DNA of 64,000 bases, taken from the IMG/VR virus record IMGVR_UViG_3300031857_007934, positions 62,001-126,000 of that record. One strand, 5' to 3'. Below, one piece after another: positions 1-35,472 of this stretch; position 1 is the stretch's first letter; every line of letters begins with the position of its first letter. The DNA is from a virus. A program made the translations under genes and the position numbers. Below the pieces are notes generated by a model. It saw nothing but the letters and a program-made list of their open reading frames with translations. It searched no databases and was not told the origin of the DNA.

Positions 1-345
1 CAACTAGATGCTTGGTTTGCTGCTGTTAATCTTAACCCCGATATTGAAATTGACGGATCTCTAGACGACAGAGATGAGGGTCATATAGATCCTATTATAC
101 AACACATGGGAGTTACTGTATGTCATCCCTTTATTCATACAAGAAAAAATTGGATAATAAATCAGTATTTTAAAAATAACATAACAGACTTATTAAACTT
201 GACTAGAAGCTGTGAAGGCGATAAAATAAACTATCCTGAAACTTTTGGTGACTTAGATTATAAAACTTATGTTTCAGGACAGTATGTTCCTGTTTGCGGA
301 AAATGTTTCTGGTGTAAAGAAAGGGAGTGGGCTCTTGGAAAATAA
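1..345 (+). CDS. queC: QueC-like 7-cyano-7-deazaguanine synthase, C-terminal part (5' end outside window)
   Basis: The reading frame is open from base 1, so only the last 114 residues are visible. They end in a T-R-S-C-E ... C-G-K-C-x-x-C-K-E-R arrangement. This matches the four-cysteine zinc site at the C-terminus of QueC/ExsB PP-loop ATPases, which make the nitrile preQ0 from carboxy-deazaguanine. The ATP-binding PP-loop would lie upstream and cannot be checked here. Phages use QueC either for deazaguanine DNA modification or within queuosine salvage pathways; which applies is unknown. The last 11 nt overlap the following radical SAM gene, so the two are translationally coupled. An ATG at 106 is internal to the frame, not a real start. 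Identification rests on the zinc motif and is moderately strong. Confidence 0.65.
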   Translation, partial: QLDAWFAAVNLNPDIEIDGSLDDRDEGHIDPIIQHMGVTVCHPFIHTRKNWIINQYFKNNITDLLNLTRSCEGDKINYPETFGDLDYKTYVSGQYVPVCGKCFWCKEREWALGK

Positions 346-1600
346 ATCATGTACCTTCTGTATGCATCCTTTTACAGGACTTGCTACTAGAGAAGACGGA
401 GCAATAAAAGTCTGTTGTCGTAGTCAACCTATAGGGTGGATTCAAAAAGAAAGTTTAGAAGAAGCGTGGAACAACAGTGAAATGCGCAAAGTTCGCCAAC
501 AGGTTCTAAATAATGAAAGACCAGAAGTATGTAAACCCTGTTTTGATTTAGAAGATCAGGGCGTTGAAAGTTTAAGACAAAGACACATTAATGGAGTTAT
601 TCCAGAAGCTAGAATTAATCTTTATCCTAATGCATTAGAAAATCTGTTAGAAGATTTTTCAATGCCTTTTGAATTTCCTACAATGGAAATTAAATTAAAC
701 AATCTTTGCAATTTAAAATGCCGTATGTGCAATCCTCTAGATAGTACTAGTTGGAAAGATTGGGACCAAGTTACAGAATTTTATAAAAAAGAAAACAATT
801 ATCTTATACCTACTATTGAAAAATTAGTTGATGTACCTGGTCAGTATATAGGACCCTTTGACAATAGCGATAACTGGTGGAATAGTTTTGAAAAGTTATT
901 ACCGTACTTTCGTAGGGTAGAATTTGCTGGCGGCGAACCTCTAATGGATCCTTATCATTATAAAATATTAGATATGCTTGCACCTTATGGTTCTAATATT
1001 GAATTAAAATATGCTACTAATGGTACGACCTTAGGAATTAAGGGAGGAAGAACTATACATGATTATTGGCCGAAGTTTAAATCAATAGCTGTAAATGTAA
1101 GTATTGATGGTATACATGATGTTTATGAATACATAAGAGGTAATGGTAAGTTTTCCGAAATAGAAGAAAATGTTAAAGTGTTTAAGTCATTTCCTAACGT
1201 AAGCCGAGTAGTAGGAGCATTTACTGTACAGGCTAATAACATAATGCAGATAGATAAAGTTATAGACTACTTTATAAATGAAATGGGTATTGTGTTTTAT
1301 TCACATCGTGTAAACTATCCTAGAGCACTATCTGCTCAGACATTGCCAAGTGTATTAAAAGAACAAGTAATAGAAAAGTTAGAAGTTATGAAAACAAAAA
1401 TACTAGACTATCCTTTAGTGCAAAAACATGCTCTTCTTAAAACTGTAACACTACAACAAATACAAGATAATATTAATTTCCTTAAGGCTAACGATTTAAG
1501 TAGATTTTGGCCTGACTGTGTTGAATTTAATCGGCAACTAGATAAAACTAGAAATCAAAACTTTCTTACAACCAACCCAGAGTTTATAAATTATGTATAA
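335..1600 (+). CDS. Radical SAM protein with N-terminal twitch domain (rSAM 1, long type)
   Basis: 421 residues. The start chosen is TTG at 335, with an AAGGGAG ribosome site just upstream. It places the family N-terminal motif (C6-x-x-C9, HPF, then CC at 27-28) at the same distance from the start as in the long paralogues at 13615 and 17087; the ATG at 269 would add 22 residues read from inside queC. A second cysteine pair (CKPC, about residues 70-73) completes an N-terminal twitch/SPASM-like domain that probably holds an auxiliary iron-sulfur cluster. The radical SAM CxxxCxxC motif is C125, C129, C132, followed by GGEP. The C-terminus carries the LDxxRxxxF...P tail shared by the long paralogues. 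This is the layout of N-terminal-twitch radical SAM proteins, whose substrates are unknown. It overlaps the next gene by 8 nt. Confidence 0.85.
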   Translation: MENKSCTFCMHPFTGLATREDGAIKVCCRSQPIGWIQKESLEEAWNNSEMRKVRQQVLNNERPEVCKPCFDLEDQGVESLRQRHINGVIPEARINLYPNALENLLEDFSMPFEFPTMEIKLNNLCNLKCRMCNPLDSTSWKDWDQVTEFYKKENNYLIPTIEKLVDVPGQYIGPFDNSDNWWNSFEKLLPYFRRVEFAGGEPLMDPYHYKILDMLAPYGSNIELKYATNGTTLGIKGGRTIHDYWPKFKSIAVNVSIDGIHDVYEYIRGNGKFSEIEENVKVFKSFPNVSRVVGAFTVQANNIMQIDKVIDYFINEMGIVFYSHRVNYPRALSAQTLPSVLKEQVIEKLEVMKTKILDYPLVQKHALLKTVTLQQIQDNINFLKANDLSRFWPDCVEFNRQLDKTRNQNFLTTNPEFINYV

Positions 1601-2483
1601 GATAACTAGTCGTTGGCCTCATCAAGAGTCTGTAAAGATTGAATGGAATCTTGGTAAACGTTGTAACTTTGATTGCGGATATTGTCCTGCTGAAATTCAT
1701 GACAACATAAGCCCGCACACAGATATAGCTATTTTAAAGAATACTGTAGACAAATTAACGGAAATTAATAAGCCAATTAGAATCAGCTTTACTGGTGGTG
1801 AACCGTGTGTTCATCCGGATATTGAAGAATTGTTAGCGTATGCTAAAGAACATGCTAGTTGGATCAATGTAACTACTAACGCTACTAGAACACCTGAATG
1901 GTACGCTAAACAACCTGTAAGTCATTATGTGTTTAGTTTACACTACGATAATGAACATTGGGAACGGTGTGCTATGACTATACTGTTGTTTTCTCAGTTG
2001 TGTGAAATACCGTTTCAAGTTAATATTATGGCTCATCATCAACACATGGATAGAGTGCGGTATTCAGTTGATCTGTTTACAGGTCACAACATAGGATTTG
2101 TACTAAGAAGAATACGGTGGACCGAAGGTGATCACGATTGGTTCGACGACATGAGATATCAACCTAATGACTTAAAATATCTATTAGAAAACAACGCAAC
2201 AGCAAAAGAAAATTGCATAGTTGACAACAAAGATCTATATCATGCTAATGATATAATAAAACTGCATATGAATAAATTTAAAGATTGGAAATGCAGTGCA
2301 GGTATTGAAAGTCTAATGATTAACTGGGATGGTGAAGTACACCGAGCTACTTGCAGAGTTGGCGGTAGTTTAGGAAATATCTATAAAGGAGATTTTCGTA
2401 TTCCAGCATCAGAAATAATTTGTGATAGAAATTGGTGTACTTGTGCAGCAGACATTCCGCTGACTAAGACTTCCATTTTGTAA
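1593..2483 (+). CDS. Radical SAM protein with C-terminal twitch domain (rSAM 2, short type)
   Basis: 296 residues. The radical SAM cluster ligands are C24, C28 and C31 (CNFDCGYC), followed by FTGGEP. A C-terminal twitch domain starts at WKC (C234) with the pattern E-S-L-x-I-x-W-D-G, a later cysteine and a final C-x-C before the end. It should cleave SAM to a 5'-deoxyadenosyl radical; the substrate is unknown. Its ATG overlaps the stop of the long-type gene upstream by 8 nt (ATGTATAA), so a long and a short enzyme are made as a coupled pair. The stop lies inside the convergent gene on the other strand, giving a 20-nt antisense overlap. It is the best template for comparison with the permuted protein at 16107-17090. 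Confidence 0.88.
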   Translation: MYKITSRWPHQESVKIEWNLGKRCNFDCGYCPAEIHDNISPHTDIAILKNTVDKLTEINKPIRISFTGGEPCVHPDIEELLAYAKEHASWINVTTNATRTPEWYAKQPVSHYVFSLHYDNEHWERCAMTILLFSQLCEIPFQVNIMAHHQHMDRVRYSVDLFTGHNIGFVLRRIRWTEGDHDWFDDMRYQPNDLKYLLENNATAKENCIVDNKDLYHANDIIKLHMNKFKDWKCSAGIESLMINWDGEVHRATCRVGGSLGNIYKGDFRIPASEIICDRNWCTCAADIPLTKTSIL

Positions 2484-3462
2484 TGTGCGTATCTGGTTGG
2501 CAGCTACAATTCATTCTTGGACAAATTAATGTTTTTAAACTTAGCGATTCTTCGCTAAATTTTTCTTCAAAATCTTCTGCAAACATATTTAAATTAGAAT
2601 TAGAAAACACAGGTTCTTGACAACTACCTGTAACTGTACCGTCATAAGTAATAACTAGATTTTCAAGAGCCACATTACAATTCCAACCCTTCCATTGATT
2701 TAATTTATTAACTATGTAATAGTTAGGTAGTGCTAGCTCTACAGAATTATCATCATAAAGCGATACACTTTCGTGTACTCTAAATCTATGTATGTTATTA
2801 ATAATCCAATTAGTATCCGGAACACGTTTAAAAGGTTGTTTAAAATAACTGAGCTGTTCTGCTGTATAGTTTCTTATATCATATCCTGGAGCATCTACAA
2901 CTTCTTTTGCTTGTATAATCCAAGGATGTTTACTGCTTCTCATTTGTTCAATTAATTCAACACATGTATCCCAAGCCGTAGCATCCATAAGCATTAGAGC
3001 ACCTATGTCTGTACCTCTTCCAAAAATATAATCAGCTACTTGAATAAAATTATTAATGTCAACATCTTTGTAATGACAACTTAATACTACTTTATCAACA
3101 TATAAACTATTTTCTTCCCACCATCTAAGAGTTCTACTGCCGTTAGAAGTCAATTGTATTTCAACTGGATGTGTTTCTTTAATGCCTTGACAGAACTCTG
3201 AGAGATGCGGCCATAATGTAGGTTCACCTCCCCCTACTATGTTTATCTTAAACTTTTTCTTGTTATGCAGTTTCATATATGCATCAAACAGTATTCTAAA
3301 ATTCTTTATTACAGTGTTGACATTTTTAGGATAACGATACTTGTTAAGAACACTGCCAGGAAAACAATAGTTACAACTAAAGTTACAAATATCGGTAGGC
3401 CAAAATCTCACATCTAAAAGAGTAGGATCTTGTGTAGTAATAACTCTTGCTAGTTGTTTCAT
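2464..3462 (-). CDS. Radical SAM protein with C-terminal twitch domain (rSAM 3, short type)
   Basis: 332 residues. The [4Fe-4S] site is C26, C30, C33 (CNFSCNYC), with GGGEP as the SAM-binding glycine motif. A C-terminal twitch domain starts near residue 262 (WNC...E-N-L-V-I-x-Y-D-G) and ends with a CPRMNCSC cluster and D-x-x-I-T-K. This is the last gene of the long minus-strand operon. It is coupled to the long-type gene upstream through a 4-nt ATGA overlap, so it repeats the long-then-short pairing seen on the plus strand. Its 3' end overlaps the convergent gene by 20 nt, and no hairpin terminator was recognised at the junction. Substrate unknown. Confidence 0.88.
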   Translation of the reverse strand: MKQLARVITTQDPTLLDVRFWPTDICNFSCNYCFPGSVLNKYRYPKNVNTVIKNFRILFDAYMKLHNKKKFKINIVGGGEPTLWPHLSEFCQGIKETHPVEIQLTSNGSRTLRWWEENSLYVDKVVLSCHYKDVDINNFIQVADYIFGRGTDIGALMLMDATAWDTCVELIEQMRSSKHPWIIQAKEVVDAPGYDIRNYTAEQLSYFKQPFKRVPDTNWIINNIHRFRVHESVSLYDDNSVELALPNYYIVNKLNQWKGWNCNVALENLVITYDGTVTGSCQEPVFSNSNLNMFAEDFEEKFSEESLSLKTLICPRMNCSCQPDTHITKWKS

Positions 3463-4871
3463 ACTAAGTGACTCAATAACGGAAAAATAGTTTTAAAATC
3501 TGTGTTTCTAATAGAATCTAGTTTATGTATGTATTCTTTAAATGCCGGTAGTTCGTGTGTATGATCTTCACCGTCCATAAAATCTAAAACAGCCTGCCAA
3601 CGCTTCCACCCATACGGATTTACATTCCAAAAGTCTGAATCTTGTGTATAGTTTTCTAGAAGCCATAATCTAAAATCTTCAAATATTTTTCTTACTTCTT
3701 GCTTGTCCTCTTTAGGCAAGCATCGTATACTTAAAAAAGTAGGTATATACAATAAGTGCATGTTTACTATTCCGCCGCCGGCTTGTATACCTTCATAAAC
3801 ATTTTCAAAATTTATCTTTTTAAAATTCTGTGTAATTTTCCACTTTGCTAATTCAGGTAGAGTTTTTATGTTTAGGATTTGAATAGCTGTAGCAATACTT
3901 ACTTGTACGTTGCTAGGCGTATTATCAAGAATATGCATATTCTTTTCTAATCTATCCCAATCAGACGGATATCTAATGTAATAGTTTCTGTCAGTAATAT
4001 CATCAATACTCACAGCAAATTTTACTTTCTTAAAATTTTTCCATAACTCTAATGTTTCTTCGTCTAGTAATAATCCGTTAGAATTGTATCTAATTAAAAT
4101 CTTATCAGCATAACCTTGGCGTACAATTTCTTTTAAAAGATTCTTGTGTTCCTTTATCATTAAAGGTTCGCCGCCTGCAAAGTAAACCTGCTTTAGATAG
4201 GGTATTTGTGCATACATCTGTTCCCAAAATACAGGATTTTCATACCAATAATTATTAAAAGATCCCGCGTCCCAACTCATTTGCTTTTTAAGCGAGTCAT
4301 TTTGAAATAAAGGATAAATCTTTTTATGGTCATCTACCCATCTACTACTATCATGAGGACTACACATAACACATTTTAAATTACAAGTGTGTCCTAGTCT
4401 TAAATCAAGATACTGCAAACGTTCTGGTACAATACCATCTTCGTTTGTATTTTCAATTAATTCCTTAAGATCAATACCATCTAGCATCCAAGTGCCTGTT
4501 TCCCAAACACGTTTACTAACTACGCCTTTTTCTTCTTCTCTAAAACACTTAGAACAACTTGATGGTATTTCACCTTTTATCATAGTTGTTCTAACACTTT
4601 TCATATAGTCGTTGTTCCATGCTTGCATAGGAGTTTCACGACCAAAGTTTGCAGGACGACCGTGTTCCATTTTTACCAACCCAACTTCATGATCTTGGCC
4701 GGCGCCGCTGGCGTTAGCTGAACAGCAAAGTCTCATATCTCCATTAGGGCGTGTAGCAAAATGTATCCATGGTAATACGCAAAAGGTTGGTGTACCGGAC
4801 TTTGTTTCAATTTCTTGTTGGTATTTTTCTAACTGCTTGTTACCTGAATTACACCAAAATTTATCAGTCAT
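3459..4871 (-). CDS. Radical SAM protein with N-terminal twitch domain (rSAM 4, long type)
   Basis: 470 residues, the longest radical SAM protein here. A short lead of about 25 residues with one extra cysteine (C7) precedes the N-terminal twitch motif (FCVLPWIH at 30-37, CC at 49-50, then C-S-K-C and E-x-G). The radical SAM ligands are C163, C167 and C170 (CNLKCVMC), followed by FAGGEP. The C-terminus keeps the LDxxRxxxF...P tail. ATGA overlaps join it to the methyltransferase upstream and to the short-type enzyme downstream. Known members of this architecture lack an assigned reaction. The twitch domain probably binds one auxiliary cluster, inferred from the cysteine spacing. Confidence 0.87.
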   Translation of the reverse strand: MTDKFWCNSGNKQLEKYQQEIETKSGTPTFCVLPWIHFATRPNGDMRLCCSANASGAGQDHEVGLVKMEHGRPANFGRETPMQAWNNDYMKSVRTTMIKGEIPSSCSKCFREEEKGVVSKRVWETGTWMLDGIDLKELIENTNEDGIVPERLQYLDLRLGHTCNLKCVMCSPHDSSRWVDDHKKIYPLFQNDSLKKQMSWDAGSFNNYWYENPVFWEQMYAQIPYLKQVYFAGGEPLMIKEHKNLLKEIVRQGYADKILIRYNSNGLLLDEETLELWKNFKKVKFAVSIDDITDRNYYIRYPSDWDRLEKNMHILDNTPSNVQVSIATAIQILNIKTLPELAKWKITQNFKKINFENVYEGIQAGGGIVNMHLLYIPTFLSIRCLPKEDKQEVRKIFEDFRLWLLENYTQDSDFWNVNPYGWKRWQAVLDFMDGEDHTHELPAFKEYIHKLDSIRNTDFKTIFPLLSHLV

Positions 4872-5476
4872 TTCTTTTTTCCTATTAGCATGAATCTTTT
4901 ATACTTTGGTGTTTCAAATTCACCGCTGTACATAACATTTATTTTAGACATATTTTTAAAATCTTCTACATCAATACTACATCTTATATGTTCTTCTAAC
5001 TCAAAGTAATTATTACTTTGTAAAACAATAAGAGTTTGTTCTGGAACATTATTTAACCATTCCTCATATTGCTCCTGTGTTATATGCTCGCAACTAGTAT
5101 TAATAACAATGTCTGGTACTTGTTCATATTGATATGTACACATATCAGCTGTAACTGCTTTAAACCTACCTTCAATTTCTTGACGTTTATTTACTGTTCT
5201 TGCAGTTTCTTCGCAGACTGTATCAATATCAACACTGGTAATATGAGAAATATTCATTATTTTACTATTAAAAAGTAAACTAGCAAGAACTCCATTCCAT
5301 CCGCCATGAATTACAATAGATTTAGGATAAGCATTAACTAATAAATCTAAATTATTAATTAACCATACTTTACTTCGAATTTGACCTTTCCAAAAACTTT
5401 CAAGAGTTCGATACCTATCTTCGCTATTACGTATGGCATCCATCCAAAATAAAACATCTTCAATCTCAACTTTCAT
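4868..5476 (-). CDS. Class I SAM-dependent methyltransferase-like protein
   Basis: 202 residues. A Rossmann-type SAM-binding signature is visible: a hydrophobic strand leading to the glycine-rich H-G-G-W-N-G loop (residues about 54-62), the acidic S-V-D-I-D strand end about 25 residues later, and a P-D-I-V-I-N strand (motif IV) near residue 125. The family is class I methyltransferase; the acceptor is unknown. A glycan, peptide or small-molecule acceptor would fit its place between a glycosyltransferase-like gene and a radical SAM gene. It overlaps both neighbours by 4 nt (ATGA), so it is part of the operon. Confidence 0.65.
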   Translation of the reverse strand: MKVEIEDVLFWMDAIRNSEDRYRTLESFWKGQIRSKVWLINNLDLLVNAYPKSIVIHGGWNGVLASLLFNSKIMNISHITSVDIDTVCEETARTVNKRQEIEGRFKAVTADMCTYQYEQVPDIVINTSCEHITQEQYEEWLNNVPEQTLIVLQSNNYFELEEHIRCSIDVEDFKNMSKINVMYSGEFETPKYKRFMLIGKKK

Positions 5477-6666
5477 TTTGTATTACCTATCGTTTTAAAC
5501 ATATCAATAAAATCTTTAGCTTTGGTATCCCTTGCAGTTTTTATATATAGAGATTTATTAAATTCTAATTTGTCTTTAATAGACTTAAATTTTTCTTGTT
5601 TTTCTTCAGCAGGTAGATTAGCAAATTTTTCTATCTCGTCTAAAACTAAGTTAATTCGTTTAACAGGATCTAATTCACTATCATATGATTCATTAAACAT
5701 TTCAGGAAATGTCTTATATCCTTTAGATCTTAATAAACTTAACATATTTGGTGGTCCTATAAGAATAAACGGATGTAAATTTGCCATAGGTTTATAAATC
5801 TTTTCTGTAATAAATCTATATACTAACCCTGTTTCACTTATTACACTAAAAAAAGTTGAGGAATAATGATTAATTGCATTATTGTAAACTGCGTTTTGAG
5901 AAAAATTGTTATTATCAGTATCAAGAACTAACGATGACCAATTGTTTGCAAATTCTTTTATATAAGAATGACAGCAATTATTTTCTGTTAGTATCTTTAA
6001 ACACTCATCTATTTCATAATGACCTATCGTATGTTTTGATCCAATTAGGCTTACTAGACCGTTATCTAAAATTTGACGATGGTTTAATTCAGCAACTGCA
6101 TATAGCCTATGTGGTCTTATCTTTCCATTATAAAACAAATAATCAAATTTTCTTTTGTGACTAAGGGATCTGTTAAAATAATTAGCGTTTTCATAATAGT
6201 CACCTTTATAAAAATCAAACAATATTGGGATTAAAAAATCTTCAATATTGTGCTCTTTGATATATGTTAAATAATTTTCTACAAATTCGTTATCACCGTA
6301 TGCAAAGAAAATCTTATTTGTTAACAGATTATGTTTTTTAAGATTTTTATAAATGTTTAATAGCCAATTATCAAACGCATGACCTTCTCTTGGGTAATAG
6401 AGTACTAATTTTACATTTTGTCTTAGTAACTCTTTTGTTTCTTCTGGAATTAAAGAGAAAATGTCATAGTCAATATAGACATTCAACAATTCAATAATGT
6501 AAACATTTGTATCTGAGTGATCAACAGGATCACCTAGATGTTTTATAGAAAATTCTATTTTATTAGTGTTTAATTTGTTGACAATAGTTCTAGTAGGGTA
6601 GACAGCATCCGCATAACTACAGTTGCTTTTATGCAAATTATCGTACCATAGAACTATTTTATTCAT
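5473..6666 (-). CDS. Putative glycosyltransferase, GT-B/exostosin-like (paralogue of 12399-13625)
   Basis: 397 residues with no signal peptide. The most telling part is a C-terminal block near residues 275-330: S-E-T-G, then I-T-E-K-I-Y-K-P-M-A-N, a short hydrophobic strand ending in G, and M-L-x-x-L-R-S-K-G-Y-x-T-F. A TEK-x-x-x-P block of this kind is typical of the donor-binding half of exostosin and fucosyltransferase-like GT-B enzymes. The same block, down to F-x-x-x-F-x-E-S-Y-D, recurs in the 408-aa protein at 12399-13625, so the two are paralogues. Donor sugar and acceptor are unknown. It overlaps the dioxygenase gene by 8 nt and the methyltransferase gene by 4 nt. Family placement is by motif only. 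Confidence 0.55.
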   Translation of the reverse strand: MNKIVLWYDNLHKSNCSYADAVYPTRTIVNKLNTNKIEFSIKHLGDPVDHSDTNVYIIELLNVYIDYDIFSLIPEETKELLRQNVKLVLYYPREGHAFDNWLLNIYKNLKKHNLLTNKIFFAYGDNEFVENYLTYIKEHNIEDFLIPILFDFYKGDYYENANYFNRSLSHKRKFDYLFYNGKIRPHRLYAVAELNHRQILDNGLVSLIGSKHTIGHYEIDECLKILTENNCCHSYIKEFANNWSSLVLDTDNNNFSQNAVYNNAINHYSSTFFSVISETGLVYRFITEKIYKPMANLHPFILIGPPNMLSLLRSKGYKTFPEMFNESYDSELDPVKRINLVLDEIEKFANLPAEEKQEKFKSIKDKLEFNKSLYIKTARDTKAKDFIDMFKTIGNTK

Positions 6667-7204
6667 TTAAAAAGCCGGATATCTGTAGAGTATACTTGTT
6701 TTGTAATCCTATGTTTGCGCCAATATGAAGGATAGATTCATCCCATAATAAACCTTGACCAGCTTTCCAGTGTGTATGGTTGGCCCATTCGTTAGAATCC
6801 GAATCTTTACTATATTGAATGATGTGTCCAACTTTCCAGTCCTCTAGATACATGTTAGCTCTGACCTTTTTTCTAGTATCGTTGGGATATCTCTTTTTAA
6901 TTTGAAAGAATGTATCTCTGTGTAGCGGAATTACATTGCCAGGAGGTTGAAGTATTGAACTAACTGTAATAATCTCCATACCAAGTTGACTGCCTAGTCT
7001 GCTAAAGTCTATATCATCAGCCGTCCACCAAAGTTGATGTATTTTAGTATTTTCTAGACAGAAAGTGTTAGGGAATCCTCCAAACTTTTCATGAATGTCT
7101 GTTAGTTCGTATACTTGGTGTTTAACACAGCTACCTTCGTGTTGATTGTAATCAGCATTTAGAAAAATACTAAAATCATAATCTATTGCTACTTCTTTAA
7201 ACAT
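6659..7204 (-). CDS. 2-oxoglutarate/Fe(II) dioxygenase-like (aspartyl/asparaginyl hydroxylase type)
   Basis: 181 residues. The iron-binding facial triad of the double-stranded beta-helix dioxygenases is visible: H95-x-D97 in P-L-H-R-D, and a distal H160 in L-H-I-G-A-N, with a basic residue about ten positions later to hold 2-oxoglutarate. The stretch between them (R-x-N-x-Y-L-E-D-W ... W-x-A-G-Q-G-L-L-W-D) matches the aspartyl/asparaginyl hydroxylase pattern. It should hydroxylate an unactivated carbon; the target is unknown. Its ATG overlaps the preceding radical SAM stop by one base (TAATG). It is the only non-radical C-H oxidising enzyme in the operon. Confidence 0.7.
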   Translation of the reverse strand: MFKEVAIDYDFSIFLNADYNQHEGSCVKHQVYELTDIHEKFGGFPNTFCLENTKIHQLWWTADDIDFSRLGSQLGMEIITVSSILQPPGNVIPLHRDTFFQIKKRYPNDTRKKVRANMYLEDWKVGHIIQYSKDSDSNEWANHTHWKAGQGLLWDESILHIGANIGLQNKYTLQISGFLNE

Positions 7205-9920: not shown

Positions 9921-9921
9921 A

Positions 9922-16105: not shown

Positions 16106-16106
16106 A

Positions 16107-20209: not shown

Positions 20210-21539
20210 TACACAACTCGTAAAATTCTTTTAGCTCAGGATAAGTCTCTAAGAAATTTGTTCCTCTGCGTTTATCGTGTTCGTCTACAAATATAACAAA
20301 GTCTTTTCTGTACGTAGATAACTGTTCTTCTGTAAAAGTTTTATTTGACATATAACTTTTTAATCGTTGAATCTTGTCAATTGTAAGCTGAGGAAATGAT
20401 TTTTCTATCATGTATTCTTCAGCAGCCTCTAAATATTTTACATACTCATTTGGCAATATCTGTACACACTGATGTGGTGGAAAACGCAAATACGGTGTGT
20501 CAAAGTTTATTCTCTTACCGTAATCTTTATGTAAACTATACATATATTCCATAAAGCCTTTTACATTAGGAACACTGAATACATTAAAGGTGCAAGTAAA
20601 TGAAACTTTGCTGTTGGGGATTTCATCTAAGAAACGTCTTACATTTTTTGTAAACTGTTCAAAATTTAAACCGTAACGTTGATATTCGGCTTGAGCACCA
20701 ACGCTGTCAAGACTTGCAAACATCTTAAATACACCCACACGTTCTACTATCTTTTTACCTGCTGCTATAGCTTGATCAATCAGCTTATCAGGCACACACA
20801 TATTAGAGTTAACTACAACTTCTAGTTTAGGATTAGGATTTTCAGCAATGTAATCCAGCAGAGTAAACGTGTGTTTACTCATAAGAGGCTCACCGCCAGT
20901 GACACGAAGGACATGCATATGAGGGTATGCGTCCGGTAGCCATTCCCAAAATGCGTCAATATAAGGATTGTGTTCTCTATCTAATATAAATGGTAGAGGT
21001 TTACCTGGTTTGATATAGTCATTAAACTCAGTACTTGTTTTATAACCGCCATATTGATTAACTTCTTCAAGCCACTTAGAACTTACTGTAGGATTACAGT
21101 AAGAACATTTAAGATTACAGGTTGTACTAAAGCTCACTTCTACATGGCGCGGGTAGACATCCTCGTCGCCAGTGTATGTTTTAAAAGTGTCTAGGTCATT
21201 TTTAGCATAAGGTTCAGCATTACGAATTATTCTATCACTGATATTACCTAAATCTTCCATACGCCAGCAGTATTCACACTCTTTAGGACGTTCTCCATTG
21301 AGCATAAGTTTACGTTGACTCTTTTTAAAGAGTGTATTATGTATTGCACCTGGATTATTTTTTAATTCTTCTAGGGGAACTTTGTGTGTCCACGGATGGT
21401 AACAACTATGAGTTTCTCCCTGTGCAAGATGCAGGGTAACCATATGCCATTTAGCAGAACAGAAAGTAGACGAAATCTCGTCACTTTTCTTTAGATGTAT
21501 TAAATGGTATTCTGAAAGTTTACTTCGATCTACAGTCAT
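20202..21539 (-). CDS. Radical SAM protein with N-terminal twitch-like domain, SCxHP subgroup (rSAM 12)
   Basis: 445 residues. The N-terminal domain differs from the other long enzymes: C27-S-A-K-W, then T-H-S-C46-Y-H-P replaces the CC pair, followed by K-V-P-L-E-E-L, H-N-T-x-F-K, and G-E-R-P-K-E-C-x-Y-C-W with E-D-L-G. Radical SAM ligands are C141, C145 and C148 (CNLKCSYC), then V-T-G-G-E-P-L. The tail H-D-K-R-R-G-T-N-F ... Y-P-E-L is the long-group ending. It is a tandem paralogue of the gene upstream, with the core cysteines at identical positions, and overlaps it by 20 nt. Substrate unknown. Confidence 0.86.
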   Translation of the reverse strand: MTVDRSKLSEYHLIHLKKSDEISSTFCSAKWHMVTLHLAQGETHSCYHPWTHKVPLEELKNNPGAIHNTLFKKSQRKLMLNGERPKECEYCWRMEDLGNISDRIIRNAEPYAKNDLDTFKTYTGDEDVYPRHVEVSFSTTCNLKCSYCNPTVSSKWLEEVNQYGGYKTSTEFNDYIKPGKPLPFILDREHNPYIDAFWEWLPDAYPHMHVLRVTGGEPLMSKHTFTLLDYIAENPNPKLEVVVNSNMCVPDKLIDQAIAAGKKIVERVGVFKMFASLDSVGAQAEYQRYGLNFEQFTKNVRRFLDEIPNSKVSFTCTFNVFSVPNVKGFMEYMYSLHKDYGKRINFDTPYLRFPPHQCVQILPNEYVKYLEAAEEYMIEKSFPQLTIDKIQRLKSYMSNKTFTEEQLSTYRKDFVIFVDEHDKRRGTNFLETYPELKEFYELCNE

Positions 21540-22914
21540 TATAAAATTCTTCCAACTCAGGAAACACCTCTACAAAATTAAAACCCTTGCGTTGATCATG
21601 CTGGTTAAAGAAATTGTAAAAACGTTCTTTTTCTATAGGATTTAGCTTCTGTCTTGACTCAACAGCATACTTATACATTCTAGCAAACTTTTCAATTTCT
21701 GTATCTTGAAATCCGTGCCAACCTACAATATTTTGATCGTTTGCTTTTAAAAATTCAAGATCAGATTCTATAATCTTTAGCATACTTTCGTCAGCTAGAC
21801 TAACCGTTTGCCAACTAGGATAACGAAGATAACTAATATCAATCCAAATGTTTTTCCATTGAGGGTTTGAATGAGTTTTTCTGTACTCTAATAACCATTC
21901 AAGTAGTTTTCTAAATCTAGGTATACTCAACAGATTATATGTTGCCATAATTACTACTTTTGAACGCCATTTAATCATTGGCATCTCAGTAGTCACACGT
22001 ATTAGATTGTTTATAAATTTGTCGTAATCTAATCCTGGACGTATATATTCAGCTTGGCGTCCTTCACTCTCAACACTGGTGTAGATTTCAAATCTTTTTA
22101 CCTTAGAATTAGTAATAAGATCATTACCTATTTTTATTAATCTATCAATAAAATTATCTTGCACACACAAATTACTATTGATAATTATTTCAATGTTAGG
22201 ATTAGGATTAGCTTGAACATACTCTAGAATTCTCCAAGTATGTTTGCTTAGTAAAGGTTCTCCACCAGTAATTCTAAACACTCTAAGTTTTTGATATAAC
22301 TCAGGCCATATTTCCCAAAATGCGTCAATATAAGGATTGTCTTCCCTTTCAGGTATAGGAGTTAAACCTTTTTGATCTAAATAACTTAAATCAGCATGTT
22401 TAAAATCACCTAGATCATAAGGACCATTTCTTTTAACATCGTCGACCCACTTTGAACTAATCTGCGGACTGCAATACATGCAGCTAAAATTGCAAACATT
22501 TGAAAAACTAACTTCTAGGTATGTAGGAAGAAAATCTTTGCGTAGTGGGTCTTTTAGAATTTCATCTTTGTATTCTGAACTCCAATATTCTCCGCTTTTA
22601 AAATGTCTGTCGCTGAGATAGTCTTTGCCTAAATCTTCTATATTCCAACAGTAGTCGCACTCTTTAGGTCGTTCACCTTTAAGCATTTTTTCTCTCTGCT
22701 CAATTTTAAAACGTGTATTATGTAGTGCGTGGGGACTTTCTAGTAGTTCTTCTAGAGGAATCTTATGGGGGACAGGATGATGACAGCTATGTGTGTGTCC
22801 GTTATGCAAATGCATAGTAACTTGTGTCCATTTAGCAAGACACATAGAACAACTTACTTTATCTAGTTCTTCTCTAATATTTTCTGCATTAATATTGTAA
22901 TAGCTTTTGCTCAT
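21520..22914 (-). CDS. Radical SAM protein with N-terminal twitch-like domain, SCxHP subgroup (rSAM 13)
   Basis: 464 residues. N-terminal cysteines are C22 and C25 (C-S-M-C-L-A-K-W), then T-H-S-C-H-H-P, K-I-P-L-E-E-L, H-N-T-R-F-K and G-E-R-P-K-E-C-D-Y-C-W. Radical SAM ligands are C141, C145 and C148 (CNFSCMYC), then I-T-G-G-E-P-L-L-S-K-H-T-W. The ending is H-D-Q-R-K-G-F-N-F ... F-P-E-L-E-E-F. It forms a tandem pair with the downstream gene and is joined by ATGA to the GT-A-like gene upstream. Substrate unknown. Confidence 0.86.
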   Translation of the reverse strand: MSKSYYNINAENIREELDKVSCSMCLAKWTQVTMHLHNGHTHSCHHPVPHKIPLEELLESPHALHNTRFKIEQREKMLKGERPKECDYCWNIEDLGKDYLSDRHFKSGEYWSSEYKDEILKDPLRKDFLPTYLEVSFSNVCNFSCMYCSPQISSKWVDDVKRNGPYDLGDFKHADLSYLDQKGLTPIPEREDNPYIDAFWEIWPELYQKLRVFRITGGEPLLSKHTWRILEYVQANPNPNIEIIINSNLCVQDNFIDRLIKIGNDLITNSKVKRFEIYTSVESEGRQAEYIRPGLDYDKFINNLIRVTTEMPMIKWRSKVVIMATYNLLSIPRFRKLLEWLLEYRKTHSNPQWKNIWIDISYLRYPSWQTVSLADESMLKIIESDLEFLKANDQNIVGWHGFQDTEIEKFARMYKYAVESRQKLNPIEKERFYNFFNQHDQRKGFNFVEVFPELEEFYNDCRSK

Positions 22915-23834
22915 AGGCGCTCAATAAACCTTTGGTGATCAGTTCTAGCAGGATGCTCGTAAACTGTTTTAAAAAATTTACTTTGATCCGATGTTAGTAC
23001 TTCACCTATAGGAATGCTTAGTTTTTCACTAAGTTCTTGTCCAAGAAGTGTAGTTCTAGAATCAATTTCAGAATCTTGCATTGCTTCAAATTCTCTAGCC
23101 CAAAGATCATTAAGGTATTCAAAATCACGAACGTTTACATAGTCCCATTCAGTAAGCATAGTTTTATAAAGACCCTCCCTAGCCCCTAATATTGCCCATT
23201 TACCATTTTCAATATCAGTTCCGACCATTGTCCAAATATAAAGCCAATGCAAACAACGCCAATGATTTTTTAGAAAGTCTTCCTTTGAAGGTTTTACTCC
23301 TCTATCAAGAGCTAGTTTAACTCCTTCTCTAAAACCTGCTCTCCAAGCCTGTGCAGGTGTAGCATTGTTGTATACATCTGAATAACAACTGTTCATTTGA
23401 ATATACTGCACATCCCAGCAAAAGTCAACCTGTGCGTGTTTGTTTGTTGGATCCGCTGCTTCGTGTGTTTTCATATTGAGGACAAAGTCTTTAGGCCAAC
23501 ATTTTAATCCACCGTTACCATACATTAACCCGTTGATAGCATTGCGGCCGCTCCAACTGATTACACAATTTGTAAGATCTGTGTGTTCAACAAAATCAAT
23601 TTCTTGATTTAAAAATTCTTCTCTAACAACATTGTCACCGTCAACTGTGATGAACCTATCAGTTTCGCTTAGACGAGCACAGGCTTTGTGTGCTGCATCG
23701 GATCCTTTAACACCGTGAACACGTTTTGCCCACGGTATCTTTTTACACAAATCTGCATAATTTTTTTCAGCATTTGGTTCATCATAGGATAGGTATATGA
23801 TGTCATAATCAACAACTTTAATTTTTTGGCTCAT
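22911..23834 (-). CDS. GT-A-fold glycosyltransferase-like protein (paralogue of 9237-9920)
   Basis: 307 residues. Y-D-I-I-Y-L-S-Y-D-E-P-N-A-E-K-N-Y near the start, R-V-H-G-V-K-G, and F-I-T-V-D-G-D near residue 65 point to a GT-A sugar-nucleotide-binding core with a DxD-like motif. N-G-L-M-Y-G-N-G-G-L-K and W-R-A-G-F-R-E-G also occur in weaker form in the 227-aa paralogue. An extra C-terminal region of about 80 residues is present only here. It is coupled by ATGA overlaps on both sides. Sugar and acceptor are unknown. Confidence 0.58.
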   Translation of the reverse strand: MSQKIKVVDYDIIYLSYDEPNAEKNYADLCKKIPWAKRVHGVKGSDAAHKACARLSETDRFITVDGDNVVREEFLNQEIDFVEHTDLTNCVISWSGRNAINGLMYGNGGLKCWPKDFVLNMKTHEAADPTNKHAQVDFCWDVQYIQMNSCYSDVYNNATPAQAWRAGFREGVKLALDRGVKPSKEDFLKNHWRCLHWLYIWTMVGTDIENGKWAILGAREGLYKTMLTEWDYVNVRDFEYLNDLWAREFEAMQDSEIDSRTTLLGQELSEKLSIPIGEVLTSDQSKFFKTVYEHPARTDHQRFIERL

Positions 23835-25216
23835 TCTAGTACCTCATGAGAGTAGGTATCAAAAAACTTAGAAGTGTATACACTTACATCTTCTCTAGTT
23901 CGTTCCCAATCATTTTGATAGGGATAAATTTGTGAAACATCGTTTAGCAGTTTGCTTAAAGAAAATTCCATTGTTCTATAAAGTATATTAGGATCGTACT
24001 TAGATGTAACACTGAAATACAATGTGTCTTGTCCTACATAACTAATTTTTTGAAGACTTCTTTTGGTCTTCTTACCTAGGTAAATTTCCCAGCAACCTAA
24101 TAAATTATTTTGAACAACATTTACATCAATATCTCGTACTTCTAATCTAGTAGCTAGGTACAAATTTTTGCCAATTAATACCTTTGCGCCATCTTCAATA
24201 GTGCTATTATCAAGCAACTCAATAGTATCTTTTATTTTTTCATTGTCTGCTAGAAGTTTATTATGCTTTTCAGTAAAGGAAAATTTTGTAAGAGTTTTTA
24301 ATTCTTCGTCATATAACAGTCCTTGATATTTTGAAGTATAAAAAACAATTGACTTTTCTTGCATCTTTGCGTTTAGCTTTTCATCTAAGCAAAGATACAG
24401 CCTGTTATTATCTAAAATTTTATCTCCTGGGGAAAGCACAGAAACAAATGTTAAAGATTTGTTAATATCTCCATACAGCAAAACATTGCTTAGAACAAGT
24501 TCTGCATTTTCTAAATTAAAAGAAGTATCAGCTGATTGATGTTCTCTAATTCTATAAACATTGTTGTAAATCCAAACATGCTGCCCTGGTAAATGTTCTA
24601 GGTCTCTATACCATACATCTACGTGTACACCTTCAAAAATAGATTTAAACATGACTTTGTATTCAACAAAATGATTAATGCTTTTTATATTAGATACAAC
24701 TACATCAGTTACAAATACGTCTGCCTTTGATTCGTCAAACTCTTCTAATTCGATATCTTCTAACAGTTTGTAAACAGTATTCTTATACCAAACTAGCATA
24801 CCTTTTGTAAATCTAGTTCCGCTAATCCACATAAAAACTTCAACACCGTCGTAGATGCCGTTAAAAATTAAAGAACTTCTGTCGCCTGCTTCATCTGAAA
24901 CTGTTCTTACTACAGGCAAGCGATGCATGCTAGTATCTATTTTAGAATTGTTATCTTCGTATGTCTTCTCTTTTAGAGCTAACTGTTTTAAAGCTACATC
25001 GTACTCTACAATAAAATCATCAGGACTCTTAGTACCATTTATAATATCAGTTACAGTGCTGTGATGAACTTCTAGTATTGATAACAAATCGTCTTTGACA
25101 TATTTGTTACCTATTTTTTCTATTTTTCCGTTTGTAGGATCATAATAGACAAAAGAATTGGCTACAACATCTACTTCAATGTTTAGTGTTTTTAAAAAAT
25201 CGGCAAAATTAGACAT
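23831..25216 (-). CDS. Unknown protein with repeated G-x-x-V-x-x-x-N-x-x-Y units
   Basis: 461 residues from ATG 25216; a TTG at 25240 would add eight residues and is less likely. I do not recognise the family. Two clear repeats share G-V-x-V-x-x-W, G-x-x-V-W-x-x-N-x-V-Y and a following E (about residues 126-165 and 198-235). Weaker units occur at L-S-P-G-D-K-I-L-D-N-N-R-L-Y-L and I-E-D-G-A-K-V-L-I-G-K-N-L-Y-L. Units of this shape resemble small SH3-like or carbohydrate-binding modules, and similar ones occur in the giant tail protein. It might be a structural or binding component rather than an enzyme. It overlaps its neighbours by 4 and 8 nt. Confidence 0.5.
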   Translation of the reverse strand: MSNFADFLKTLNIEVDVVANSFVYYDPTNGKIEKIGNKYVKDDLLSILEVHHSTVTDIINGTKSPDDFIVEYDVALKQLALKEKTYEDNNSKIDTSMHRLPVVRTVSDEAGDRSSLIFNGIYDGVEVFMWISGTRFTKGMLVWYKNTVYKLLEDIELEEFDESKADVFVTDVVVSNIKSINHFVEYKVMFKSIFEGVHVDVWYRDLEHLPGQHVWIYNNVYRIREHQSADTSFNLENAELVLSNVLLYGDINKSLTFVSVLSPGDKILDNNRLYLCLDEKLNAKMQEKSIVFYTSKYQGLLYDEELKTLTKFSFTEKHNKLLADNEKIKDTIELLDNSTIEDGAKVLIGKNLYLATRLEVRDIDVNVVQNNLLGCWEIYLGKKTKRSLQKISYVGQDTLYFSVTSKYDPNILYRTMEFSLSKLLNDVSQIYPYQNDWERTREDVSVYTSKFFDTYSHEVLE

Positions 25217-26054
25217 GTAGGTAATTCCTATAGCGTTCAATTAATTCAGGTGTTACAAAATCTTTTTCTGTATAATGTAAGATACCTAACTGAGAAAAAT
25301 TTCCTATTTTAATTTCACAATTTCTATTAATGTAAACTCCAACACAGTTTTGCCATTTTTCATTAGGTCTAATCCAATTCTGTATATGAGGTTTCATATG
25401 AGTAAAAGTAGGAAATTCTGCATAATTGTTTGTAATTTCAGAGTCACAATCAAGAATTTTAGCTACGATTGCTGCACTAACATCCACACTGCATCTACCA
25501 GGATAATTTTCTTTAGCATACAATCCGTAGAACAATTCCCAGTTCTGCATAACAAGTTCAAGCCAAGTATAAAACTCTAGTGCTAGTTTACTCTTTTCGA
25601 AATAATGAAGTCCGCTATATAGATTAGGAAGATTGTTAGATGTAAAAGTTTTTCTATAAAAGTCGTTAGTAACTTCTTCGCCCCTATAAGTAAAAACTTT
25701 AGTTGTAAAATATAATTTGTAATTTTCTAAAAACTTCCACCAACTTGATATATCCTGTAGGATCAGCATATCAGTATCCAATACCATTGTTTGATCATAA
25801 GGTGTTGCGTGATATAGCTTCCATCTATTTTCAATCTTCCATTCTGTTGCGTCTGCATCATCTTCAAACGGTATAGGAATAATCTTATCAAACAGTTTTA
25901 CATATTCTGTAGGAACTTCATCATTAGTAACTACACTTATAAGTGTGCTAGGGTTTGTAACTTTAAGGCTCATAGCTAAAAGTGCAGCCTGTTCAACATA
26001 ATTTGCTACTGTAGAATTTTGAGCTAATACTAAGATGCCTCTACTCTTATCCAT
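25209..26054 (-). CDS. GT8-like glycosyltransferase (paralogue of 26047-26904)
   Basis: 281 residues from ATG 26054, chosen because AGGAG lies about 8 nt upstream and the start then matches the tandem paralogue (M-D-K-S-R-G-I-L-V versus M-N-N-S-R-G-V-V-L). The DxD motif M-V-L-D-T-D-M-L lies near residue 90. An S-G-L-H-Y-F block near 150 is typical of GT8 enzymes that take UDP-sugars. The final part contains G-I-L-H-Y-T-E-K. It overlaps the upstream copy by 8 nt and the repeat protein downstream by 8 nt. Donor and acceptor are unknown. Confidence 0.6.
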   Translation of the reverse strand: MDKSRGILVLAQNSTVANYVEQAALLAMSLKVTNPSTLISVVTNDEVPTEYVKLFDKIIPIPFEDDADATEWKIENRWKLYHATPYDQTMVLDTDMLILQDISSWWKFLENYKLYFTTKVFTYRGEEVTNDFYRKTFTSNNLPNLYSGLHYFEKSKLALEFYTWLELVMQNWELFYGLYAKENYPGRCSVDVSAAIVAKILDCDSEITNNYAEFPTFTHMKPHIQNWIRPNEKWQNCVGVYINRNCEIKIGNFSQLGILHYTEKDFVTPELIERYRNYLHV

Positions 26055-26904
26055 TAGACATCTCCTCATCAATTACTCGTTCCAAACTAAACTTATTCAT
26101 AACGTGAATATTTTGTTTTTCAGTTCTTATTAGTGTATATTCGCCTAAATGATCTTTCTTTTCTACTAAAAATAACATACTGTCTTCATCGAGACTCTGT
26201 AGAATATCTCTATCAATAGTATAGTAATGTTTTCCCGGCAAAGGTGCTACAAAAGACCCTTTAGAAAATCCATTCATAATATGAACAGCTATGCTAAACG
26301 CAAAATCATTTCTAAACAATCCTGAATCTATTTGATAGACACGTCTATAGTGATTCCATTCTTTTTTAATATGGCGTATAAGATCAAAAAAGACTTCATT
26401 CTCATCTGTTTTTCTGAAGAACACAACTGTAGCCCAATAAAAATCTATAGTAAAGTCACTAATGTGTTTGAATTCATCTTGATTTCTAAAATGAGCTAGG
26501 TCGTATGAATCTTTAAACAGCATTAAATCATTGTTTGACTCAAAACATTTTAATAGTAGATCATTGCATATGATATAATCAGTATCCATTAAGATTGTTT
26601 CATCGTAAGGTGACCAATTGTAGACACCGTCTCGCATGTCATTTTTAAATGGAGCAGTTTTGTGAAACAATGAACCGTCAAAATAAGCTCTATTATTTTT
26701 AGTTTCAGAATATTCAACTGTAATAATTTTATCAAAAATATTTGTATCAAATGCTTTTTCTAAATAATCAGCACTATCTGTTATTACAGTTGTTGGTAAA
26801 TTTAGATATTTCTTAATTCTCTTTGCTAGAAATACAGCCTGTTTAACATAATCAAGTTTGCCATTGTTTCTAGCAAATAAAACAACGCCTCTTGAATTAT
26901 TCAT
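26047..26904 (-). CDS. GT8-like glycosyltransferase (paralogue of 25209-26054)
   Basis: 285 residues. The start S-R-G-V-V-L-F-A-R-N and Y-V-K-Q-A-V-F-L-A match the tandem copy downstream. The metal-binding DxD motif is I-L-M-D-T-D-Y-I near residue 108, and F-Y-W-A-T-V-V-F-F near 150 is a GT8-like acceptor-side strand. It is the second gene of the operon and overlaps the 117-aa leading gene by 8 nt. The two copies have diverged well beyond a recent duplication. Donor and acceptor are unknown. Confidence 0.58.
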   Translation of the reverse strand: MNNSRGVVLFARNNGKLDYVKQAVFLAKRIKKYLNLPTTVITDSADYLEKAFDTNIFDKIITVEYSETKNNRAYFDGSLFHKTAPFKNDMRDGVYNWSPYDETILMDTDYIICNDLLLKCFESNNDLMLFKDSYDLAHFRNQDEFKHISDFTIDFYWATVVFFRKTDENEVFFDLIRHIKKEWNHYRRVYQIDSGLFRNDFAFSIAVHIMNGFSKGSFVAPLPGKHYYTIDRDILQSLDEDSMLFLVEKKDHLGEYTLIRTEKQNIHVMNKFSLERVIDEEMSNG

Positions 26905-27250
26905 GGTTTACTAGAGTTTCTATTTTTCTGTTTTTCTTAAGTTCTTCGTATTTTGTGTAATACGTATTTGATGCTGTAAAGTAAATATTAAGGATGTCAT
27001 CATAAAAAGAACCTAGATCTGATATCTTAGCAGGTATGTCGTTATCGTCAGTTAGTACAACATCAGAGTCATTACCTCGTTCTATTAACAGACCAACAAA
27101 CGTAATTAATTCTTTTGTAACAGTAAATTGGCAACCACTGTTAAAGTACATGAGGTCTTCAAAATACTTTTCTTTAATGACTCGTTTTTGATTGTTTAGC
27201 GTAACCATGTAATTGCTAAACTTAAGAGCTTTTTCTAATCTTTCGTCCAT
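26897..27250 (-). CDS. Unknown 117-aa protein, first gene of the radical SAM operon
   Basis: 117 residues from ATG 27250, with TGGAG 7 nt upstream; a TTG at 27262 lies before the ribosome site and is rejected. The product is acidic, mostly helical in appearance, and has a single cysteine (N-S-G-C-Q-F-T-V). I do not recognise it. It is the first gene behind the sigma70-like promoter at 27326-27353 and its end overlaps the GT8-like gene. It could be a tail-associated leftover of the structural module or a small partner of the operon enzymes; the sequence does not decide. Confidence 0.55.
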   Translation of the reverse strand: MDERLEKALKFSNYMVTLNNQKRVIKEKYFEDLMYFNSGCQFTVTKELITFVGLLIERGNDSDVVLTDDNDIPAKISDLGSFYDDILNIYFTASNTYYTKYEELKKNRKIETLVNHE

Positions 27251-27325
27251 AAGAGTCTCCAAGGGTTTTAATTATATAGTCAGTTTATGGATTGAAGTCG
27301 TAAGAAACTGAATATGTTATCTAAT

Positions 27326-28364: not shown

Positions 28365-28384
28365 TAGAGTATTTATATACTCTA
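28365..28384 (-). promoter_or_regulatory. Late-type promoter octamer inside a perfect 8-bp inverted repeat
   Basis: The minus strand reads TATAAATA at 28377-28370, the consensus late promoter octamer of T4-like phages, 22 nt before the ATG at 28348. It is embedded in TAGAGTAT-(4 nt)-ATACTCTA, a perfect inverted repeat that could also form a hairpin in read-through RNA. Confidence 0.6.
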
Positions 28385-35464: not shown

Positions 35465-35472
35465 TATTTATT
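35465..35472 (-). promoter_or_regulatory. Late-type promoter octamer (AATAAATA)
   Basis: The minus strand reads AATAAATA, one base from the T4-like late consensus, overlapping the last codons of the giant gene. With the usual octamer-to-start distance, transcription would begin near 35459, giving a leader of about ten bases before the ATG at 35448. Short motif in an AT-rich genome, so moderate confidence. Confidence 0.4.

Follow-up and report, generated by a model that had tools for sequence, protein, structure and literature searches.

A radical SAM-rich gene cassette conserved among phages, with a counterpart in Bdellovibrionota

The window studied here, a stretch of 64,000 nt (positions 62001-126000 of the 156,456-base virus record IMGVR_UViG_3300031857_007934), carries a gene cassette rich in radical S-adenosylmethionine (SAM) enzymes. 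The core of this cassette is a conserved system that travels as a unit in phages, and its ends are fixed while its middle varies. With little change in gene order, the core is found again in many uncultured phages and in chromosomes of bacteria related to the predator Bdellovibrio, which indicates a pathway not yet described. That this pathway carries out a modification in several steps is well supported; tentatively, we read the locus as modular, its enzymes making and tailoring a glycan, or a glycosylated protein, of unusual chemistry. The record probably represents part of a jumbo T4-like phage genome, because it encodes the Gp23 capsid protein that we used as the mark of a T4-like phage (PF07068, E 2.1e-83) and because another IMG/VR contig, of 357,559 bases, repeats approximately 21 kb surrounding gene g04 with 98-100% protein identity. 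Gp23 was present in 4 of the 20 records searched, this one included. The system reaches beyond the left edge of the window (atpP, u62, and further genes); genes within the window are listed in Table 1.

Core genes in phages

The viral scan seeded with g04 yielded 40 loci, one of them the same phage as the window. Core counts refer to 37 of 112 viral loci, each at least 20 kb long and chosen via g04, with near-duplicates (e.g., L042/L043) included. At the identity thresholds used, g04, g02, g01, and u62 were found in all 37 loci, followed by g09 (36), g08 (35), atpP (33), g05 (32), and g10 (16); by best hit, u57 was found in 32 and g03 in 26. The gene order in phages was g08-g05-g09-g04-(g03), head-on to g02-g01-atpP, with u62 beyond, and the strand pattern was identical in 22 loci. 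Open reading frames (ORFs) with the radical SAM motif numbered 5-10 per stretch (median 7).

The g08-seeded viral scan (80 loci, 76 with new identifiers, several of them already sampled contigs, e.g., L231, L243, L251, and L289) agreed with the g04-seeded sample, less completely. Its stretches of 18 kb or more numbered 17, and g05 was present in all of them, g09 in 16, g04 in 15, g10 in 14, g02 in 12, g01 in 11, atpP in 9, and u62 in 6, and one stretch had a single radical SAM segment. Across all 76 loci, many of them short, the counts were 72 for g05, 62 for g09, 61 for g10, 38 for g04, 21 for g02, 18 for g01, 14 for atpP, and 10 for u62. A radical SAM protein over the N-twitch cut-off (NF033640 N_Twi_rSAM, curated at 170 bits) was encoded by 21 of 21 parent records (one being the same phage), with 5-13 matches each at E 0.001.

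Judged from dN/dS (NG86 medians over nonindependent pairs with dS of 0.1-1.2), the core is under purifying selection. Medians were 0.066 for g04 (86 pairs), 0.082 for g01 (54 pairs), 0.133 for atpP (46 pairs), 0.143 for g02 (80 pairs), and 0.155 for g08 (117 pairs), with 0.23 for g03, 0.279 for g10, and 0.324 for g05. Values of approximately 0.55 for g09 and u57, in which paralogs were mixed, were set aside. Fusions of core radical SAM genes, hinted at by long open frames, were not seen as ORFs, and we claim the g23-g10 fusion alone.

The earlier note on this sequence, which was made without database searches, had proposed a search for the same gene set in related phages and had counted as refutation the case that homologs occur only as scattered single genes with no common neighborhood. 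This refutation did not come about: tens of viral loci kept the core in synteny, and bacterial contigs showed it clustered. An assembly artifact or a chance cluster of unrelated phage genes is extremely improbable: all sequence material is metagenomic, but the 357-kb contig repeats the region around g04, the order is kept in many other contigs, and selection is purifying.

Relatives of g04 occurred in at least 595 stretches of the viral collection and those of g08 in at least 589 (loose relatives, with paralogs included). In 50,697 deposited phage records, tblastn found no match to g08, g10, g23, or g28 at E 1e-5 and three weak matches to g04; g01, g02, g05, and g09 were outside that search. 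Thus, a trait common in the viral collection seems absent from deposited phages. An ORF of approximately 72 amino acids (aa) that resembles, by eye, translation initiation factor IF-1 was present in 14 viral loci (family C11; e.g., L012).

Radical SAM genes of the window

The CxxxCxxC motif was found in 13 ORFs between positions 269 and 22914, as the earlier note had counted, and all 13 reached the PF04055 gathering score (29.5 bits), the lowest being g22 at 30.4 bits. Seven, the number to which an N-terminal twitch-like domain had been ascribed, exceeded the NF033640 cut-off, with the other six below it, and the N-twitch profile matched 13 places in the whole record at E ≤ 0.001, every one inside the window. 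The single permuted twitch protein was confirmed as g17, whose residues 21-101 aligned with residues 216-292 of g02 at 42%, placing the twitch-like domain at its N terminus. The proposed SPASM protein, g09, has the Cys pattern, and PF13186 gave no match to it at E 0.01. In g08, four invariant Cys outside the radical SAM triad (C268, C288, C309, and C314) fit one auxiliary cluster.

Eleven of the 13 genes lie in a minus-strand run of 25 genes (g03-g27), and each of its 24 gaps measured −50 to +1 nt, in agreement with the operon almost devoid of intergenic DNA described before. The locus contains the paralogous pairs g10/g23, g11/g12, g21/g22, g25/g26, and g28/g29, as well as g06/g14, which are similar over 90 residues. 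A viperin-like antiviral role was considered and rejected. The best score for viperin (NF038283, cut-off 180 bits) among g02, g03, g08, g09, and g17 was 47.2 bits (g02), PADLOC pVip scores did not exceed 53.5 bits, and the matches were confined to the radical SAM core. Rfam gave nothing above gathering score in window positions 1-30000.

Cassette ends and insert

Relatives with the g28 end showed virion genes, then g30, g29, g28, g27, g26, g25, g24, and g23, and then variable genes; where the stretch extended past the variable genes, g10 and the core came next (L163, L193, L146, and L162). Locus L216 was 70-88% identical to the window up to g23, except for g28 (60%) and g24 (53%), and was divergent after g23. 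Both g23 and g10 were present in 24 of the 112 viral loci. They were fused in four (L008, L009, L045, and L126, of which L008 and L009 look alike), adjacent in 15, and separated by 1-5 genes in five. In the window, 12 genes lie between them, including 7 of the 13 radical SAM genes. Among the virion genes of the window, one ORF of 5131 aa occupies positions 35468-50863 on the minus strand.

Related clusters in bacteria

A single bacterial scan, seeded with g04, found 128 relatives, and 79 loci were kept. Full-length g04 relatives (42-50%) came mostly from metagenome-assembled genomes (MAGs) of Bdellovibrionota, on contigs of up to 937 kb. Close to bacterial g04 were relatives of g08 (14 of the 20 loci L048-L067), g09, g05, g10, and g23, in varying subsets. 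By eye, the neighbors of the bacterial core were ordinary or housekeeping genes, such as the pheS/pheT-like genes of L067. This locus, on a Bdellovibrionales chromosome, also has ORFs resembling g28, g27, g26, g25, and g23 in phage order. Among 290 genomes drawn from Bdellovibrionota, 17 contained g08 (E 1e-40), as one copy in 16 and as two pieces in one; 11 of these 17 had already been sampled otherwise.

Phage and bacterial sequences were largely separate in trees, with groupings taken from the drawn branches and with very long outgroup branches in both. The g08 tree placed all viral rows but one (53 of 54) on a single branch (92/100) free of bacterial rows, and the remaining one (L044) had no clear placement among 13 bacterial rows. 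For g04, 43 of 44 viral rows grouped together (96/75), and one L044 row fell among 19 genome-contig rows. The N-twitch profile matched 10-42 places at E 0.001 in each of 14 core-bearing genomes, some of these matches falling short of the cut-off. Matches at E 0.001 were also seen in the 14 named control genomes, none of them over the cut-off.

Some loci binned as bacterial are of doubtful origin. L047 (3.5 kb), L059 (5.8 kb), and L064 (in a Rickettsiales MAG) may be mis-binned phage, the contig of L064 looking phage-like because it carries g30/g29/g27-g23. The contig of L209-L210 (G035:C6), in a Rickettsiales MAG (MED657), has g30, g29, g27-g23, and a long radical SAM array, and is probably a phage contig. 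An island at L204-L206 (G023:C1:736000-788000), on a Bdellovibrionota chromosome, is dense in N-twitch-type radical SAM genes and also has genes resembling Asp/Asn hydroxylases.

Predicted enzymes and alternative pathways

Of the six glycosyltransferase-like proteins counted in the earlier note, four gained some support. The g25 profile matched glycogenin (E 1.1e-5, profile positions 2-104 of 279), with no Pfam match, and g26 is GT8-like as a paralog of g25. The predicted g10 model (predicted local distance difference test, 91) has a GT-A-like fold. Its top Foldseek matches were glycosyltransferases (TM 0.41), and comparison by VIA with B4GALNT1 gave Z 11.6 (root mean square deviation 2.7, 135 aligned), with nucleotidyltransferases also reaching Z 10-11; g23 is GT-A-like as a paralog of g10. 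The label of g06/g14 as glycosyltransferases and that of g11/g12 as SGNH hydrolases come from motifs (GDS in g11/g12), with no library support for either. For the proposed 2-oxoglutarate (2OG)-Fe(II) dioxygenase, g07, the HxD...H motif was invariant in 6 rows, with no library match, and the match of the proposed methyltransferase, g05, fell below cut-off. Profile searches of the PDB with g10, atpP, g05, g04, g06/g14, and g07 found nothing.

The profile of u62 matched an Asp/Asn beta-hydroxylase (7v4f, E 7.6e-15), with no Pfam match for the single protein and with H96, D98, and H140 (HxD...H) invariant, and u59 was over the Asp_Arg_Hydrox cut-off. Twitch and SPASM radical SAM proteins are often peptide maturases, and these hydroxylase matches add to the case that a ribosomal protein or peptide is the direct substrate of radical SAM and 2OG enzymes that epimerize, crosslink, or hydroxylate it, in the manner of ribosomally synthesized and post-translationally modified peptides (RiPPs), the sugar enzymes being secondary. 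We consider this improbable. All of g02, g03, g08, g09, and g17 were far under the cut-offs of NCBIfam RiPP maturase models (best 25 rows per protein), and no precursor was evident by eye among ORF families (at least 50 aa) present in at least five loci, six short families (medians 60-107 aa) not having been studied.

In atpP, the SGGADS loop and the TRSCEG...CxxCFWC tail were invariant at the listed columns in 11 of 11 rows, and there were weak matches to QueC (PADLOC, E 0.002) and TilS. A plain QueC role for atpP was rejected, PF06508 giving no match at E 1, and none elsewhere in the record. The QueC-like Cys tail nevertheless fits a hypermodification of DNA or RNA bases tied to 7-deazaguanine, as do a GTP cyclohydrolase I (FolE) gene and, by eye, QueE-like and QueD-like genes in the record. 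A 519-aa gene that is DpdA/TGT-like by eye (L002 17586-19142, record 37586-39145) was found in 8 of 20 records, two being the same phage (its absence from a fragment record carries no information), and together with FolE and the QueD-like gene it suggests 7-deazaguanine DNA modification. As an explanation of the cassette, base hypermodification is highly unlikely: PF06508 is unmatched in the record, the 519-aa gene has no Pfam match, and the neighbors of the bacterial core gave, by eye, no hint of DNA modification. The QueE-like gene (L003 6165-7037, record 46165-47037) has the motif CxxxCxxF, in which the third Cys is absent, and matched PF04055 below cut-off (E 0.0033).

The record also encodes IscU, a dicluster ferredoxin, a cytidylyltransferase, a UDP-Glc/GDP-Man dehydrogenase, and an epimerase. 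Six of the 20 records carry IscU. The three largest are among the six, and two of these three are the same phage.

Fiber-like proteins and promoter signals

The g28/g29 pair precedes the g27-g23 string in phages and in the phage-like MAG contig, and a g28 homolog precedes it in the chromosome of L067. Seven viral models matched g28 at E ≤ 0.001, three of them at 2e-18 or better, and those three are without known function. The g28 family has long fiber-like members, because a g28 relative is embedded in ORFs of 1682 aa in L217 and L218.

Ahead of g28 lies TATAAATA, which we take to be the T4 late promoter word. It was observed twice in the window (13.07 expected) and 61 times in the 112 viral loci (283 expected), and 27 of these 61 lie 8-90 nt before an ORF start. 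It was the rarest among 56 letter orders and shared the strongest link to gene starts with ATAAATAT (61 of 107); the start linkage of all other letter orders pooled, ATAAATAT included, was 7.1%. The distinct g28 upstreams contained ATAAATA in four of four and the exact TATAAATA in two. The whole record has four exact copies, two ahead of a gene start, and several of its virion genes are without one. The second copy of the window (16388-16395, minus strand) lies within g17 and may be an internal late start or chance.

A TTGACA-17-TATAAT-type promoter with at least 10 of 12 letters was found ahead of g27 in 6 of 9 distinct phage-type upstreams (evaluated against mononucleotide shuffles). The score was 12/12 in L163 (identical to L161) and L221 (identical to L222), 11/12 in L176, L165, and L209, and 10/12 in L193, a score equaled by 5% of shuffles. 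No such sigma70-type promoter was found ahead of g27 in the window, L216, L218, or the bacterial L067; the window has TATAAT only, scoring no better than shuffles. By the sigma70-type signal at g27 and the TATAAATA element at g28, the enzymes would seem to be expressed early and g28 late. The proposal that the product is made early is thus borne out in relatives and not in the window itself.

An early enzyme block would also suit remodeling of a host surface glycan, by which the phage would block superinfection or alter receptors, the insert tracking host or competitor diversity. Many loci have no g28 block near the core, which agrees with such a role, and a published study of pelagimyophages proposes it for their glycosyltransferases and reports radical SAM cassettes in the host-recognition cluster (PMC7029224). 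In the g27-g23 subset, however, the operon follows the fiber-like g28/g29, a g28 homolog is kept in a bacterial chromosome, and no membrane transferase or flippase was recognized among the window genes with a Pfam match, no dedicated membrane search having been made. We regard host-surface remodeling as unlikely.

Table 1 Features of the window (window coordinates)
Feature	Position	Strand	Remarks
atpP, 3′ part; PP-loop ATPase	1..345	+	QueC-like CxxCxxC tail; gene at record 61602-62345, begins left of window
g01, radical SAM, N-twitch	269..1600	+	core; true start probably near 335
g02, radical SAM, C-terminal twitch-like	1593..2483	+	core
g03, radical SAM, C-terminal twitch-like	2464..3462	-	semi-core
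g04, radical SAM, N-twitch	3459..4871	-	core
g05, class I methyltransferase-like	4868..5476	-	core; match below cut-off
g06, glycosyltransferase-like	5473..6666	-	no library support
g07, 2OG-Fe(II) oxygenase-like	6659..7204	-	HxD...H
g08, radical SAM, C-terminal 4-Cys twitch-like domain	7204..8187	-	core; mostly single copy in Bdellovibrionota
g09, radical SAM, SPASM-like Cys pattern	8180..9253	-	core
g10, GT-A-like fold, glycosyltransferase-like	9237..9920	-	shared with bacteria
g11, SGNH-like	9922..10794	-	insert; motif only
g12, SGNH-like, paralog of g11	10745..11575	-	insert; motif only
g13	11572..12402	-	insert
g14, g06-like	12399..13625	-	insert
g15, radical SAM, N-twitch	13615..14829	-	insert
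g16, radical SAM, N-twitch	14822..16117	-	insert
g17, radical SAM, permuted (N-terminal) twitch-like domain	16107..17105	-	insert
g18, radical SAM, N-twitch	17087..18403	-	insert
g19, radical SAM, C-terminal twitch-like	18400..19356	-	insert
g20	19349..20209	-	insert
g21, radical SAM, N-twitch	20202..21539	-	insert
g22, radical SAM, N-twitch	21520..22914	-	insert
g23, paralog of g10	22911..23834	-	fused to g10 in some phages and one bacterium
g24	23831..25240	-	g27-g23 block
g25, GT8 (glycogenin)-like	25209..26072	-	
g26, paralog of g25	26047..26904	-	
g27, small protein	26897..27262	-	first gene of enzyme operon; start at 27250
TATAAT ahead of g27	27271..27276	-	good −35 only in relatives
g28, fiber-like	27356..28348	-	candidate acceptor
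Late-promoter-like TATAAATA ahead of g28	28370..28377	-	
g29, paralog of g28	28400..29341	-	

Discussion

The core unit in phages comprises the radical SAM proteins g08, g09, g04, g02, and g01 with the methyltransferase-like g05, the PP-loop ATPase atpP, and the oxygenase-like u62 and u57. In a subset of phages, a second fixed block, g27-g26-g25-g24-g23 with g10, contributes GT8-like and GT-A-like proteins. In the glycan pathway that we tentatively propose, the glycosyltransferase-like proteins would build the glycan or transfer the product, and the radical SAM and oxygenase-like proteins would tailor it. The radical SAM enzymes, presumably supplied with Fe-S clusters through IscU and ferredoxin, could act on sugar or side-chain substrates by drawing hydrogen from unactivated C-H bonds, and thereby epimerize, deoxygenate, oxidize, or link them. 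The variable insert, with its further radical SAM and transferase-like genes, may diversify the product in the fashion of a serotype locus.

The acceptor is placed with less confidence in the g28/g29 fiber-like family adjoining the operon. With an early-type enzyme promoter and a late g28, the product could be ready by the time the fiber appears. A g28 relative kept with g27-g23 in a chromosome, albeit in one genome, is the best single argument for g28. The earlier note had proposed modification of a glycan, glycoconjugate, or protein; the multi-step part of that proposal stands. A fiber or virion protein is a possible acceptor, an acceptor of some other kind is equally so, and the host envelope is a somewhat weaker candidate.

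Several observations weigh against the glycan reading or its g28 branch. No enzyme has a characterized close relative, so no reaction is demonstrated. The g10 fold is similarly close, by Z, to IspD/MobA nucleotidyltransferases and g10 therefore need not be a glycosyltransferase, and g06/g14, g11/g12, g07, and g05 had no significant library match. In several bacterial contigs, the core lies amid ordinary genes without a recognizable polysaccharide cluster. Within the stretches seen, many core loci showed neither the g27-g23 block nor g28, and g04 lay within 4.5 kb downstream of g08 in only 23 of 34 g08 stretches with room for it. Besides the record itself, a g28 relative was present in only 2 of 14 core-bearing genomes (G022, which contains L067, and the phage-like G035), and a fold search with g28 gave no PDB match at E ≤ 0.001. 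Finally, with g27 early and g28 late, the enzymes and g28 need not act together, and this split weakens any case for g28 as acceptor that is built simply on co-transcription.

A more specific version of the glycan pathway seems unlikely as a whole, namely, that jumbo T4-like phages and Bdellovibrionota, a phylum with predators among its members, have in common by descent an as yet undescribed pathway of radical chemistry that makes a new class of radical-tailored glycan on fiber or adhesin proteins, with radical SAM and transferase-like genes swapped between two fixed glycosyltransferase-like genes as in a serotype locus. If the pathway is as it looks, it would supply new enzyme chemistry, mark the surface evolution of phage and host, and allow a direct test of what N-twitch radical SAM proteins do.

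O-antigen and serotype polysaccharide loci have fixed flanks and a variable middle, with transferases and tailoring enzymes. The window shares this layout, but radical SAM enzymes dominate it and no polymerase or flippase was recognized. The NF033640 family, whose cut-off seven of the window proteins exceed, has a name that gives no function; unlike the bare family, the N-twitch proteins of the window accompany conserved radical SAM proteins of other classes and glycosyltransferase-like and oxygenase-like proteins.

A description of the cassette was not found in the open-access literature searched, nor were the conserved core, its bacterial counterpart, or the insert site. Radical SAM-rich T4-like phages and their link to Fe-S assembly are already in print, because the T4-like environmental genome TARA_ERS488813_N000010 was described with 12 radical SAM genes and Fe-S support genes, viral Fe-S assembly being suggested to serve viral Fe-S proteins (PMC5332604). 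Compared by description only, the available part of that paper describes no operon, core, bacterial radical SAM counterpart, or pathway. The host-recognition cluster of pelagimyophages, a hypervariable region beside the tail fibers with glycosyltransferases and radical SAM cassettes (PMC7029224), is a similar gene setting, again by description only, with no core defined in the part available. Tasman Sea phage contigs were enriched in the same broad classes (radical SAM, methyltransferase, and glycosyltransferase genes); as far as the available text goes, this is a class enrichment and not a gene cluster (PMC7150976). A study of a different jumbo lineage has no occurrence of "radical SAM" in its available text (PMC12619734).

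Unlike the window, the radical SAM islands of Bdellovibrionota had no virion genes seen around them and no labeled atpP relative, and u62 had only a 25% match, in L063. Like the window, they combine homologs of g04, g08, g09, g05, g10, and g23 with many N-twitch-type radical SAM genes, and this bacterial counterpart offers a cell-borne system for testing the pathway.

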